Source: Cristatella mucedo
Taxonomy: Eukaryota > Bryozoa > Phylactolaemata > Cristatellidae
Assembly (NCBI GenBank): GCA_009760855.2
Contig: WPIO01000031.1
Span: forward strand, 1,321,001-1,385,000
Reading direction: 5' to 3'
DNA length: 64,000 bases
In this document: positions 823 to 63,298 of the stretch, piece after piece
How the letters are laid out: each line of letters opens with the position of its first letter
Numbering within the stretch: position 1 is the first letter of the stretch
Program-made: the position numbers and the translations under genes
Notes under the pieces: model-generated
Seen by the model: only the letters and a program-made list of their open reading frames with translations
The model's database searches: none
Told to the model about the DNA's origin: nothing

Positions 823-1023
823 TTGCAGCAGCACTTATTCCAGGGATACAAACTGCATTGCCGCCATCTGAGTCAACTGTTCAGGGAGGTGTCATAGATG
901 GGTCAAAGTTGGCGAGTGTGACTGGCACACGGTCCAACTTGTCGCAAAAAGATCGGACGGTCATTTCCGGACTTCCTAAAGACGGCAGGCGACAAGCGTC
1001 CTATGTGGAAAGAGTGCCTTCAG
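823..1023 (+). CDS. Repeat-module exon, 67 codons, phase 1-1
   Basis: First clear exon of the array. The acceptor is cactttcag and the donor is caggtacgc; both cut after codon base 1. The peptide starts V-A-A-A. Its second half (S-N-L-S-Q-K-D-R-T-V-I-S-G-L) aligns with the S-A-S-S-W-x-D-G-P-x-I-A-G-P core of later copies, but Trp is replaced by Gln and D-G-P by D-R-T. It ends E-R-V-P-S-G, matching E-V-P-P-G. I see no signal peptide, membrane segment or cysteine. Function unknown. Confidence 0.7.
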
Positions 1024-1934
1024 GTACGCAACAGCCATGCTAATCTCTTATGAGCCTGTCCCGTACTGTAAAACTATCCTAGGTATCTATCTGTCCGTCC
1101 ACCCATTTTACTTGTGGCTTCTTAAGCTAATGTGCGACTTAGTCGCTACGAGAGCCCATTCGTGCTGAGCTTTGCTTTGTGAACTGTTCGAGAATTCTGA
1201 AGCCTTTCTATCCAGCTGAACTGCTCGGCTAGTCATTTGTCGGCAAGTGCGACCAGTTTGCACCCATCAGCTCGTTGTTAGAGCTCTTTACTCACTAGTC
1301 GAATCGATCAGTGAGTTCAGGTCAGGGCGTTTTTTCCATCAGCGAGTCTCTCAAGCGTCGGGCTTCTTTTGACCAAGCTTACTTATTTCATGAGTGCAAG
1401 CCTCTTTGTCAAATCTCCTGGGATTATTACGCGGCCATTTGTATTCTGACTCGGGCATAGCTCAGATTGTGCGCAATCGCATCCTTATACGCATGCCCTA
1501 TTTTCACGACTCACGCTAGCTCGGAGTGATTTCTGTGTCAATTGTCCTTCGCACTACATTCAATTTTCTCCTGACTCTCCTGACTCTTTTGATCCCGACG
1601 CATCGATCGTTCCAGCCTGCCGTCCAGCACTGCTACTCCCATGCTGCTCACTTCCTCGATTGCCATCCTCACCCAGCTGTTCCCAGCACTAATCGTTTTT
1701 GTTAGATAAAGTCTGTTGGCCACTGCGAGAGCATGGAAAGCCATGCGGGCTTTCAGTCGTACTATGCATAACTCTCCTGCATAGCATGCATTTAGTCTTC
1801 GTGGCTTCGTTGATCTACAGATGGAGGGGTATATTTTCATACATTCTCAAATAACCTCTCACTTTCAAAATGGGCCCCTACGTTATCCGTCTTTTCTGGA
1901 GAAGCTGCCGCTTCTTAAATCCTATTGTTTTCAG
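1024..1934. other. Intron, nothing recognised
   Basis: About 0.9 kb between two module exons. The open frames here, including a 100-codon one on the minus strand, lack splice context, repeat similarity or module motifs. I see no mobile element. Confidence 0.5.
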
Positions 1935-2144
1935 TTTCAGCATCACGTCTTAGAAGACCAGCTGAAGTCACGCCACAATATTCTCAGACAGCAGCGCTTG
2001 GTAAAGCGGCCCCTGTCCCTGAAGCACGATTCCTCCCAACAGCTCACAGACCGTCAGCGTCTTCGTTGAAATACGATCCTCAGACTGGCGATACTGTTGA
2101 ACGCGGCTCTCAGCCATCTGTTTTTATGCAAGAAATCCTTCCAG
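1935..2144 (+). CDS. Repeat-module exon, 70 codons, phase 1-1
   Basis: The acceptor is attgttttcag. The peptide begins V-S-A-S-R-L-R-R-P-A-E-V and keeps the core H-R-P-S-A-S-S in the middle, with Leu in the usual Trp position. It ends Q-E-I-L-P-G. The phase-1 donor (aggttcgt) is weak. A much better donor (gtaagt) lies four bases downstream at 2149 but would end the exon in phase 2. I chose the phase-1 site because every neighbour uses it; the true end may be 2148. Confidence 0.65.
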
Positions 2145-2169
2145 GTTCGTAAGTGGAGTAACAGAGTAA

Positions 2170-2530
2170 GATCAAAGGGCATGACATAATGATTATAATA
2201 ATACTTTGGATTGCGCCCTCAGAGAACTTAATATTTTTCTTTGCATTTTACATATGCTATAATAGAAGCATGATCAAGAGGTTAGTGGAAGCATGCACAA
2301 TGTCAAGAAGCACAACATGGTAAGAGGTGAAATGCATAATTTCAACATGTAAATATAGTTAGTGGCAGCAGGCACAATGTCATCACGCATAAATAAGCAC
2401 ACAAAGTACGAATCACAAGAATCCATTAAATGCTGAGATAAACAGGTTCGTTATTATGTAGACCAATAATAGATGCATGGGTAACCAATACTATAAGCTC
2501 ACTAGAGAACCTTTTTAAGTTGATATCAAC
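2170..2530 (-). mobile_element. L2-B LINE 3' fragment, degenerate
   Basis: Starting from an ATAATAATA-rich tail, the minus strand shows the L2-B 3' untranslated pattern. The plus strand reads gccctcagagaactta, followed by repeated -gtggcagca-, -cacaatgtca- and -cacgcataa- words also found at 32300, 40440 and 60830. There is no coding part. Confidence 0.6.
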
Positions 2531-2758
2531 GATCTAAAATCTCTCAAAAAAGGGAGGACTTGGACCATTGCCGTGCAACGCCTGTGATACACAGTCGAGG
2601 TCATAGGCGCTCAAAGAAGTACTCATGCGATCGATAGTATGAAACCCTGCCGAATATTTAGCAGAGCTACCAGAGGGGCTCGACTTTGCACAGCTGTTGA
2701 CCTTTCTCGCCGAGCTGCCTGCAGCCAGCCGTACCAATTACCGAGGCTCCACCTCACC

Positions 2759-60664: not shown

Positions 60665-62275
60665 TATAATAATAATAATACACTAGATAAGGCGCCCTCA
60701 GAGAACTCAATCTCTTTTTAGGTGCTTTACATTTGCTGCAAAGGGAAACGCGATTGATGGTGAGTGGTATCATGCATGATAAACAGAATGAATAACATGG
60801 TTAGGGGTGATATGAACAGGGTCAGCATGCAAATGTGGTTAGTGACAGCATGCACAGCGTCAGCACGCATAAGCACATGAAGGGCGAATCACAGGGACCC
60901 ACTAAATGCTGTCCTAAATAGGTGCATTTTTAAGTTATTTTTAAATGTAATCAAGTCAGGGGATGATGTGATGCAAGTCGGGAGTGATTTCCAGGCTTTG
61001 GGAGCATAACAACTAAATACACGGTCTCAAAAGGATTTGAGGTTTGTATGAGGTATTGATAAACTATTAGATTCCGAAAAGGGGGCGGTACGATGCTCGG
61101 CCTGGTGGGTAGTAGATCTGAGAGATAGGCTGGAGCCAAAGAATGAAGTGACCTAAATGTGAGTAACAAAACCTTGAAGTTAATCCGTTGCTTGACTGGT
61201 AGCCAGTGGAGGTCGGCGAGAAGTGGAGTAATATGGCAACTGCGACGCTCATAACAGACAAGCCTAGCTGCAGAGTTTTGCACCAGCTGTAAGCGCCTGA
61301 TTGCACACGCCGGTAGACGAGCAAGCAGTGAGTTACAGAAGTCAAGTCGGGATATCACAAATGCATGTACCAACTTAGATTTGGTATCCTTATTTAAACA
61401 AGCCCGAATTTCAGCAATGTTATGTAGCTGAAAGTAGGCAGACATGACTGTGGAGCTGATGTGGTCGTTTAACGAAAGGTCACTTCGGAACATGAACCTA
61501 AGATTTCGTGCATATTCAACAGGAGATATGCTGGCAGAGCCAATTTTGAGCGTTGGCCTTTCCAATTTCTGAATCACACTTGGTTTGCCCATAATTGGTA
61601 AGTTAGTTTTATCATCATTTAATTTAAGAAAATTTGCTGCCATCCATATGCGGATGTCATCAATACATGCAGCAGGGAGTTGAGAGAATTTGAGGTGCTC
61701 GAAGGCTGGGAGGGATCAAAGCAAAGGTACAACTGAGTGTCATCTGCTTAGAAGTGGAAGCATAGATTGTGCTTGGCAATCATATCAGCAAGAGGTAGAG
61801 TTTAAATCGTGAAAAGAACGAGACCGAGCACGGAGCCCTGAGGTACCTCATATTTCAGAGGTTCCTCGGATGACCTGTATCCATTCATATTAATACTCTG
61901 CAGTCTCCCACTGAGATAGTACCTGAACCATTGCAGAATAGTGCCAGTGATGCCCAGGCGAGATGGGAGGCGCTCAAGAAGCGCTCGGTGATCGATAGTA
62001 TCAAAAGCTGCCGAGAGATCGAGCAAAACAAGCAGGGATACTCTAGCCATGTATGCATTCCTAAGTAGATCGTTGTAAACCTTAAGCAGTGCTGATTCTG
62101 TGGAGTAATTAGCTCTAAAGCCAGACTGGAACTTACTAGCAAGGTGTGAAGTTTCAATATATGAGTTCAGCTGGTCCGCCACGACTCATTCCAGTGCCTT
62201 TGATAGGAATGGTAGAAGGGAAACTGGTTGGTAGTTGCTCAAGTTCTCTTTGTCTATTGTCGATTTCTTGAGATC
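60665..62275 (-). mobile_element. L2-B LINE, RT to 3' tail
   Basis: Right to left: frame 61802-62182 has N-S-Y-I-E-T-S-H-L-A-S-K-F-Q-S-G-F-R and L-L-D-L-S-A-A-F-D-T-I-D-H, and reaches V-P-Q-G-S-V-L-G. Broken sequence around the Y-A-D-D position follows (the plus strand shows a stop-creating change), then frame 60951-61643 (230 codons). The 3' untranslated region has an (AAT)n tail at 60668. Close to the copy at 32080 but independently broken. Confidence 0.92.
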
Positions 62276-62734
62276 TCGCTTTGTCACGCGGCAAGACGAC
62301 GACCAGTATTTCCGGGAGTGACGTGCAGCGGTCATGTAATTCTACTATGACTCAGCGTAGCGAGTTCACAGGAAAAAGTGACCTCTAGTATATTTAATGT
62401 AGATTACTTCTCAGTCGCGTTCGAGTGTCCGTAACGTTCACGTCAACTGTTGAAAGCACGCGATCAGGCTCACGGCACCCCATGGACTGACGTCACAAAA
62501 TACCCAGGCATGACGGCTTTTTAAAAGAAGCTAAAACCGGCACACTCCTTAATGCAGACGCTTGGTCGTTTTGCCTTGCTGCGCTTAGGCATGCTGAAAT
62601 CGTGCATGTAATCTCTTACGAATTGACACGCTTCTTTTCCGCCCAAAAAGAGATTTGGTTCCGTTAGGGCGCTATACAATTATTTTAGTATTATTATAAT
62701 TCGTGTTGTTATATTGAGCTTTAAAATATTTTAG
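62276..62734. other. Intron with worn L2-B/SINE tail
   Basis: The words agagatttggttccgttagg and gcgctatacaattatt at 62650-62683 are an isolated L2/SINE-type 3' end about 50 bases before the acceptor of the next exon. Confidence 0.5.
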
Positions 62735-63040
62735 TGCACGAGTCTAGCAGACGGCGTATCTCGCTGACTGAAGCGCGGCCTGACAATAATAAGCCGCCAG
62801 TGATGGAGTTTGCAAAAAATGAAAGAAATGTGGCAGCAGAGAGCTCAGAACCACCAGCGGCAGCGGCGAAAATACTGGGCTCTAGCCAGGTATACTCTCC
62901 CCGAATGCGGAGGCTGCCCGACAACGCTGCCAACCCGTCTCCCACAAGTGCGTCCGCGAACGTCGTCTCTGCCATGTCGGCAGCAGCCATTGTACCGGAA
63001 ACGGGCCGAAATTCAGTGGAGTCGAAGGGCAGCCAGCCAG
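62735..63040 (+). CDS. Exon, 102 codons, phase 1-1, I-S-L-T-E type
   Basis: The acceptor is ttaaaatattttag and the donor is ccaggtaatc. Starts H-E-S-S-R-R-R-I-S-L-T-E-A-R-P, sharing R-[KR]-I-S-L-T-E with the exon at 56486, though here the motif is near the start. Ala/Pro/Ser-rich middle (S-S-E-P-P-A-A-A-A-K) and S-A-S-A-N-V-V-S-A-M. Ends G-S-Q-P-G. Confidence 0.75.
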
Positions 63041-63124
63041 GTAATCGGGCTCGGACCCCGTTCGAGAACAGCCGGGCTAATTAGGGGCTCGATCGTGCCA
63101 TTGACCGCTGTGTCCAAGTTGCAG

Positions 63125-63298
63125 TCCGTGCGGTTTTAGAGGCTCTTTCATATAGCGGCAAGCGAAGAGATATCTCCAGCTTGCCGTCTTACCCTGGAGA
63201 AAATAACAATCGCCAACCTACCATCGCTAACTGGACTTCGACCTTCACCCCCAGCTTAGCAGACTTGACACGAAACTCGAGCCGTCAGGTGGCAGCAG
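63125..63298 (+). CDS. Exon, 58 codons, phase 1-1, N-N-N-R type
   Basis: The acceptor is tccaagttgcag and the donor is gcaggtaagac; the intron before it is 84 bases. Contains S-G-K-R-R-D-I-S-S-L-P, then P-G-E-N-N-N-R-Q-P-T-I-A-N-W-T-S, and ends R-Q-V-A-A-G. Aligns around N-N-N-R with the exons at 54796 and 56862. The donor gtaagaca matches that at 57015. Confidence 0.75.

Follow-up and report, generated by a model that had tools for sequence, protein, structure and literature searches.

A 64,000-nucleotide stretch of the Cristatella mucedo genome (contig WPIO01000031.1, here C244, positions 1321001-1385000 of the forward strand; hereafter the window) carries on its + strand 15 full copies of one short module, each filling a single exon with phase 1 introns at both ends (phase 1-1), and 2 shortened copies. 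Ten more copies lie just upstream on the same strand. That the gene and the module family exist we regard as nearly certain. Held tentatively, with clearly less than even confidence, is a wider reading: the module may found an undescribed class 1-1 family whose units are disordered, which may together with several other, unrelated exon-repeat families make up nearly a whole giant gene that is still lengthening, and phase symmetry, not folding, may have made the exon shufflable. The genome comprises 572,011,866 bases in 688 contigs, and 257 kb of flanks beyond the window were examined. Seven-digit positions below are those of C244, and shorter ones those of the window.

The first module profile was built from six + strand stop-to-stop frames and iterated, and a later, clean profile was made of the 15 full copies. 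Because copies were sought among open frames only, decayed copies could have been missed. As read from the DNA, acceptors are AG and donors GT (mostly CAG/gtaagc or AAG/gtaagt, with the slash at the cut), always cut after codon base 1. GC donors are clear at 27327-27533 and 35416-35619, and probable at 31335-31517. Both splice sites are good in 14 of the 15 full copies, which hold 60-75 complete codons each, and phase 1 introns at both module ends can be read in 15/15 window and 10/10 upstream copies. Introns between the window copies range from 475 to 12,236 nt. The module exons of the window, every one of them phase 1-1, are as follows.

823..1023, + strand, module exon 1, divergent; acceptor may be 829
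1935..2144, + strand, module exon 2; acceptor may be 1941
14381..14503, + strand, short module exon lacking the central blocks; acceptor may be 14426
15954..16079, + strand, short module exon lacking the central blocks
19585..19791, + strand, module exon
23212..23424, + strand, module exon
24467..24691, + strand, module exon
26531..26734, + strand, module exon
27327..27533, + strand, module exon; GC donor CAG/gcaagc
28279..28485, + strand, module exon
30002..30208, + strand, module exon
31335..31517, + strand, module exon; 3' end uncertain, the exon chain picking a weak GC donor at 31517
35416..35619, + strand, module exon; GC donor AAG/gcaagt
36810..37037, + strand, module exon
37513..37725, + strand, module exon
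41072..41284, + strand, module exon; the alternative acceptor 41078 has a higher score
42908..43114, + strand, last module copy found

No copy of the window module was recognised past 43114 up to the window end, and the downstream flank gave nothing below E 1. An earlier note on this DNA had described a series of mutually similar phase 1-1 exons over 823-63298, with acceptors of AG and donors of GT or GC, and such exons are indeed seen on the + strand. The repeat array stands, but its numbers change: instead of about 20 copies the window has 15 full and 2 short ones, with ten others upstream of it, the module length of 67-76 residues becomes 60-75 complete codons in full copies, and the claimed 30 or so phase 1-1 exons become 24 in a conservative window chain of 28 exons.

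Conserved blocks of the module read approximately L-x-E-V-G-x-I-P-x-A, R-P-S-x-S-S-W-x-D-G-P and, near the exon end, S-F-A-G. Among the 15 full copies, two serines are each kept in 13, the tryptophan in 11, D and G in 10 each and P in 9. In the I-P pair, I is kept in 10 and P in 11 copies; R, R, A, S and E are kept in 10-11, and near the module end F in 7 and G in 9. In the short exons (14381-14503 and 15954-16079) only the ends are recognisably kept, and the score of their common part was reached by 6/2000 shuffles.

At one splice threshold, phase 1-1 open exons number 26 on the + strand (alternative ends counted) and 0 on the - strand, a contrast that is partly circular since the splice-site matrices were trained on module exons. 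A weak donor keeps the copy at 31335 out of these 26; homology tests on it used 31335-31532. When all nine phase combinations are taken at a lower threshold, the counts are 97 vs 12, with 1-1 the largest + class (38 vs 0). Given the training of the matrices, leave-one-out and shuffle tests were relied on more. Leave-one-out profiles recognise 14/15 copies at E 3.5e-6 to 8.8e-20, the 823 copy being found only at E 0.25. Left-out copies score above all 1000 shuffles in 14/15 cases, and for the 823 copy 1/1000 shuffles reached the score. Among pairs of copies, 68/105 have a shuffle p <= 0.005, and the remaining 37 lie above it.

Random 68-codon frames of the window are open in 7.6% of cases (1376/18162), and the module frames are open. 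Over the 14 strong copies, identity at codon positions 1, 2 and 3 is 0.504, 0.512 and 0.366, and a control with codons shuffled within copies gives 0.283, 0.269 and 0.252. The codon-position identities indicate protein-level selection on the module copies. At fourfold sites where the amino acid is shared, copies have an identical third base in 0.389 of 749 comparisons vs 0.286 expected at saturation; the fourfold sites of the window copies are near, not at, saturation. Thus, from codon-position identity and near-saturated fourfold sites together, the window copies appear old and preserved for the protein they encode. Their mean pairwise protein identity is 27.3% over all pairs and 26.7% over adjacent pairs, so that a signal of adjacency was rejected, neighbours being no closer (rank correlation p 0.31). 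No intron similarity between window copies was found in 300 nt on either side; one apparent intron match was dropped because it came from two overlapping flanks. A - strand match to the module profile at 56661-56744 (E 0.0017; 0.0068) overlaps a forward open frame and was taken as chance; it had been part of the first iterated profile but of none of the later ones. A possible extra phase 1-1 exon at 41364-41513, 79 nt past 41072-41284, has weak splice scores and is kept by the exon chain.

The ten upstream copies, of 51-67 residues, form a second subfamily with exons of 156-165 nt (one of 204 nt), in most of which the first block is missing. Nine of them were picked up by the window profile, naive to the flanks (E 9.6e-8 to 0.049), and the tenth (1299958-1300101) by a profile made of eight upstream exons (E 4.2e-10). 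The 823 copy matches the upstream-subfamily profile as well (12.3 bits, 0/500 shuffles). All ten can be read as open exons of phase 1-1, and eight of them have CAG/gtaagt or CTG/gtaagt donors; at 1312740 the chain preferred a 1-2 end. When the best module was used as a genome query, 11 matches were obtained among the best candidates scored, ten of them on C244, of which nine fall within the window and one upstream, and the remaining one on C26 at E 0.68. A stop lies inside the upstream query match, at 1307469, ahead of the predicted exon start at 1307494.

Upstream, exon and intron were duplicated together. A 411-bp unit is present in 3.6 copies at C244:1307415-1308906 (Tandem Repeats Finder), and one adjacent pair of exon-plus-intron units is 98.5% identical over 409 bp. 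Other units are 92-95% identical over 180-269 bp, and 75-76% against the last unit. The newest pair differs at the donor (CAG vs CTG). With adjacent units 98.5% identical, exon duplication upstream looks recent.

Searches for known relatives turned up none. In Pfam, a 1116-residue concatenation of the modules had no match at E <= 10, the 15 single modules had three sub-threshold hits only, each to one member, and the ten upstream copies had no match at E <= 1. Outside the window, the Pfam cut-off was reached by 0/34 distinct fragments (which took in part of the smaller predicted exons), and no match above it was found for a six-exon family (1191647-1215787) or for giant exons (1286686-1295165), both described below. 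NCBIfam gave nothing above a curated cut-off, with sub-threshold matches such as one module to HelR at E 0.025, and PDB, searched by sequence, showed no relative. The protein database returned nothing for the 15 aligned modules (E <= 1), for the 1116-aa query (E <= 1) or for one of 425 aa (E <= 10), negatives that are limited by length windows, word sampling and an uncertain share of animal proteins. The module does not match the models of Nebulin, Xin, calpastatin, plakin or other named Pfam repeats; a calpastatin-like reading of L-x-E-V-x-x-I-P was considered and is without Pfam support. Among the papers listed by the literature searches, none appeared to describe the module, and its peptide and repeat strings had no match. 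The module thus appears undescribed as far as the Pfam, NCBIfam, PDB and protein-database searches reach, in agreement with the earlier note, which had called it unrecognised: a check for a strong known domain in these four gave only scattered sub-threshold matches.

The extent of the gene was estimated with an exon chain from our own scorer, for which this gene also served as training material. The chain, made from genomic sequence alone, is to be read as a prediction rather than as an annotation. In the window, the + chain scores 757 with 28 exons (24 of them phase 1-1) and the - chain 137 with 10 exons. Over 1181001-1391000 the chain comprises 74 exons, of which 44 precede the window, 28 lie inside it and 2 follow it, with a predicted product of 10,813 residues over 205 kb; 58/74 exons are phase 1-1, and 59/74 are a multiple of three in length. 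Run over 1221001-1485000 under a different setting, the scorer gives 1742 for the + chain vs 255 for the - chain. The claim of one giant gene is thereby upheld at the level of a phase-consistent predicted chain through the window and its flanks. The predicted chain reaches neither end of the gene, and the domain scan took in only part of the predicted exons. The - strand exons C244:1396352-1396568 and 1426118-1426589 resemble, by eye, a protease-associated membrane RING-finger protein (Goliath type), and with these downstream (1396352-1426589) the giant gene probably ends before them.

Other repeats seem to occupy this chain. Six phase 1-1 exons at C244:1191647-1215787 form another repeat family, with E 7.9e-5 to 3.3e-26 among the pairs reported, which are part of the total. 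Predicted exons 1286686-1289178 (2.5 kb) and 1289887-1295165 (5.3 kb) show a 112-residue periodicity, and within 1286686-1295165 long aligned stretches are 46-54% identical. A predicted 4.1-kb exon (1277413-1281471) is self-similar at lags of 28, 42, 56, 70, 84 and 112 residues (multiples of 14); both the 4.1- and the 5.3-kb exons are split under another chain setting. At 1174123-1176315 there may be one more large exon of phase 1-1. Growth by tandem exon duplication, as proposed earlier, shows directly upstream in the 411-bp unit and the 98.5% pair; with at least two other repeat families apparently present, however, growth from a single exon oversimplifies the gene taken as a whole.

The predicted product is rich in Ser, Ala, Pro and Arg and contains 0.2% Cys. 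In the modules (1107 residues), Cys is 0.3%, P+E+V+K+A 38.6% and D+E+K+R 21.6%; R/K is 4.5 vs 1.2 in four retrotransposon frames of the window. AlphaFold2 gave a mean pLDDT of 58.7 and a pTM of 0.16 for the 823 copy (15 paralogous rows), and 63.6 and 0.15 for the 37513 copy (14 paralogous rows). We put at about even the chance that the product is a giant, Cys-poor, largely disordered modular chain with repeated short motifs, serving as scaffold or spring.

We conceive that unequal crossing-over or replication slippage between repeats could copy an exon and its intron together as one unit. Gain, loss or skipping of an exon leaves the reading frame intact, since each unit has its cuts after codon base 1, and with the frame kept, length is free to change. 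The product, predicted at >= ~10,800 residues, would be a long, largely disordered, probably intracellular modular chain, possibly a multivalent scaffold or a molecular spring, in which the conserved blocks may act as repeated docking or sticker motifs. According to PMC8001218, shuffled domain types are a few dozen of class 1-1 and most are extracellular; the intracellular cases named there are titin, twitchin, projectin and myomesin/skelemin. The present module resembles those class 1-1 modules in its phase 1 introns on both sides and its tandem duplication; unlike them, it has no Pfam match and is predicted with low structural confidence, and its significant matches are in one gene (by one query). 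If the reading is true, an apparently unstructured peptide of 50-75 residues has spread like shuffled class 1-1 domains, and exon duplication is in progress in one locus, with neighbours 98.5% identical in DNA beside old copies about 27% identical in protein. The locus would then allow a test of whether intron phase or protein fold governs the multiplication of exons. Should the predicted chain hold, the protein exceeds 10,000 residues, with Pfam recognising nothing in the parts scanned.

Several observations weigh against the main reading of a giant, largely disordered modular chain. Residues below pLDDT 50 are only 8/66 and 0/70 in the two models, whose alignments are shallow, and a charge-hydropathy test places 14/15 modules on the ordered side. 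With the upstream-subfamily profile, 7/15 window copies (823 included) beat all 500 shuffles and 8/15 do not. The newest 98.5% pair, although its two copies differ at the donor, may partly reflect misassembly. The scorer that proposed the long chain, and the exon ends other than those of module copies, had been trained on the very gene to which it was applied. Of the module Asn residues, 4/10 are in N-glycosylation sequons, which touches the intracellular part of the proposal; since class 1-1 proteins are also mostly extracellular, 'intracellular' is a guess. The scaffold-or-spring role was drawn from the anatomy only.

The array could instead be the elastic I-band part of a titin/connectin-family gene (sallimus or I-connectin type), in which the module would serve as a spring repeat specific to this lineage. 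Crayfish I-connectin is reportedly a charge-rich protein with 68- and 71-residue repeats of unknown kind; set beside it by this description alone, the product here is alike in repeat length and giant size, and unlike in charge, given the D+E+K+R content above. The I-band and PEVK part of titin/connectin (TTN) also resembles the present gene in being a giant gene with many symmetric exons and one tandem repeat per exon, where length is set by exon number and probably also by splicing. Titin is among the intracellular proteins built of class 1-1 modules (PMC8001218), and symmetric exons number 311/363 in human TTN and exceed 73% in NEB and OBSCN (PMC9222585) vs 59/74 predicted here. However, neither Ig nor FN3 was matched in the exons scanned on both sides of the array, which are part of the predicted exons. 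The module, of 60-75 residues, is rich in S/A/P/R, not P/E/V/K, and its P+E+V+K+A share is below the ratio of >= 0.54 for PEVK plus Ala by which PEVK exons are recognised in PMC6469411. Connectin relatives are treated in PMC12198301. On balance we consider a titin-type gene unlikely.

Somewhat less likely still, in our estimate, is that the exons form the giant disordered tail of some known scaffold gene (of giant ankyrin, plakin or presynaptic scaffold type), with folded domains farther upstream. Consistent with this, the gene 5' end lies beyond the examined upstream DNA, and there are very large predicted open exons with internal repeats (4.1 and 5.3 kb, split by another setting). In giant ankyrins, Futsch/MAP1 and Bassoon/Piccolo, the tails consist of a few large exons, very large and probably disordered, some internally repeated; such tails are usually not made of dozens of small phase 1-1 exons, whereas here dozens of small symmetric exons stand before and after the large ones. 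Many homologous exons in series, with two short variants, would also be expected of a mutually exclusive, Dscam-like array with one module per transcript. We find this quite improbable: symmetric copies mean that the reading frame does not enforce exclusion, the introns between copies are not compact at 475 to 12,236 nt, and the module exons are embedded in a long predicted chain of other symmetric exons. Finally, retrotransposon fragments in introns (RVT_1 in 4/8 scanned frames) and window copies only ~27% identical on average could suggest that this is no gene but a set of frames open by chance, a mobile element or an array in decay. The codon-position pattern, open frames, splice signals and reverse-strand control contradict this, and the single module query matched outside the gene only at E 0.68; a non-gene origin is scarcely credible.

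Beyond the last module copy, the following + strand exons are notable.

46444..47229, + strand, predicted long exon without module similarity, phase 1-1; 5' end 46336 or 46444
52381..52531, + strand, predicted exon, phase 1-2
52869..53785, + strand, predicted long exon, phase 2-1; frame with the highest codon score of the window
53918..54232, + strand, predicted exon, phase 1-1; 3' end uncertain
54700..55077, + strand, predicted exon, phase 1-1; 5' end uncertain, shorter versions also predicted
56862..57014, + strand, exon Y1, paralogue of Y2, phase 1-1; acceptor weak
62735..63040, + strand, predicted exon X2, 99 nt before Y2, phase 1-1; acceptor weak
63140..63298, + strand, exon Y2, paralogue of Y1, phase 1-1

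Y1 and Y2 are a second paralogous phase 1-1 pair (score 58, reached by 0/2000 shuffles), each with a possible exon X some 80-100 nt ahead. Paralogy of X1 (56486-56783, outside the chain) and X2 found no support, their score being reached by 325/2000 shuffles, and the long exons at 46444 and 52869 were rejected as relatives of each other (630/1000 shuffles). The segment 52001-56000 has a G+C content of 0.61 vs 0.41-0.49 elsewhere, with long open frames on both strands, the + frame being best.

As for the remaining sequence, ARAGORN and Rfam reported nothing within the window. LINE-type RVT_1 fragments lie in introns at 5417-5770, 32479-33333, 33337-33702 and 61805-62185 (- strand), and more retrotransposon pieces were recognised by eye at 4554-6765, 12370-13649, 16488-18032, 34047-34986 and 60951-61715. 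A dispersed 123-nt repeat at 14952, 18022, 18097, 31082 and 40044 has, by eye, a tRNA-like head and is perhaps a SINE. Long (TC)n/(AG)n and (TA)n arrays occupy 2759-2874, 29476-29612, 33794-34033 and 20884-21085.

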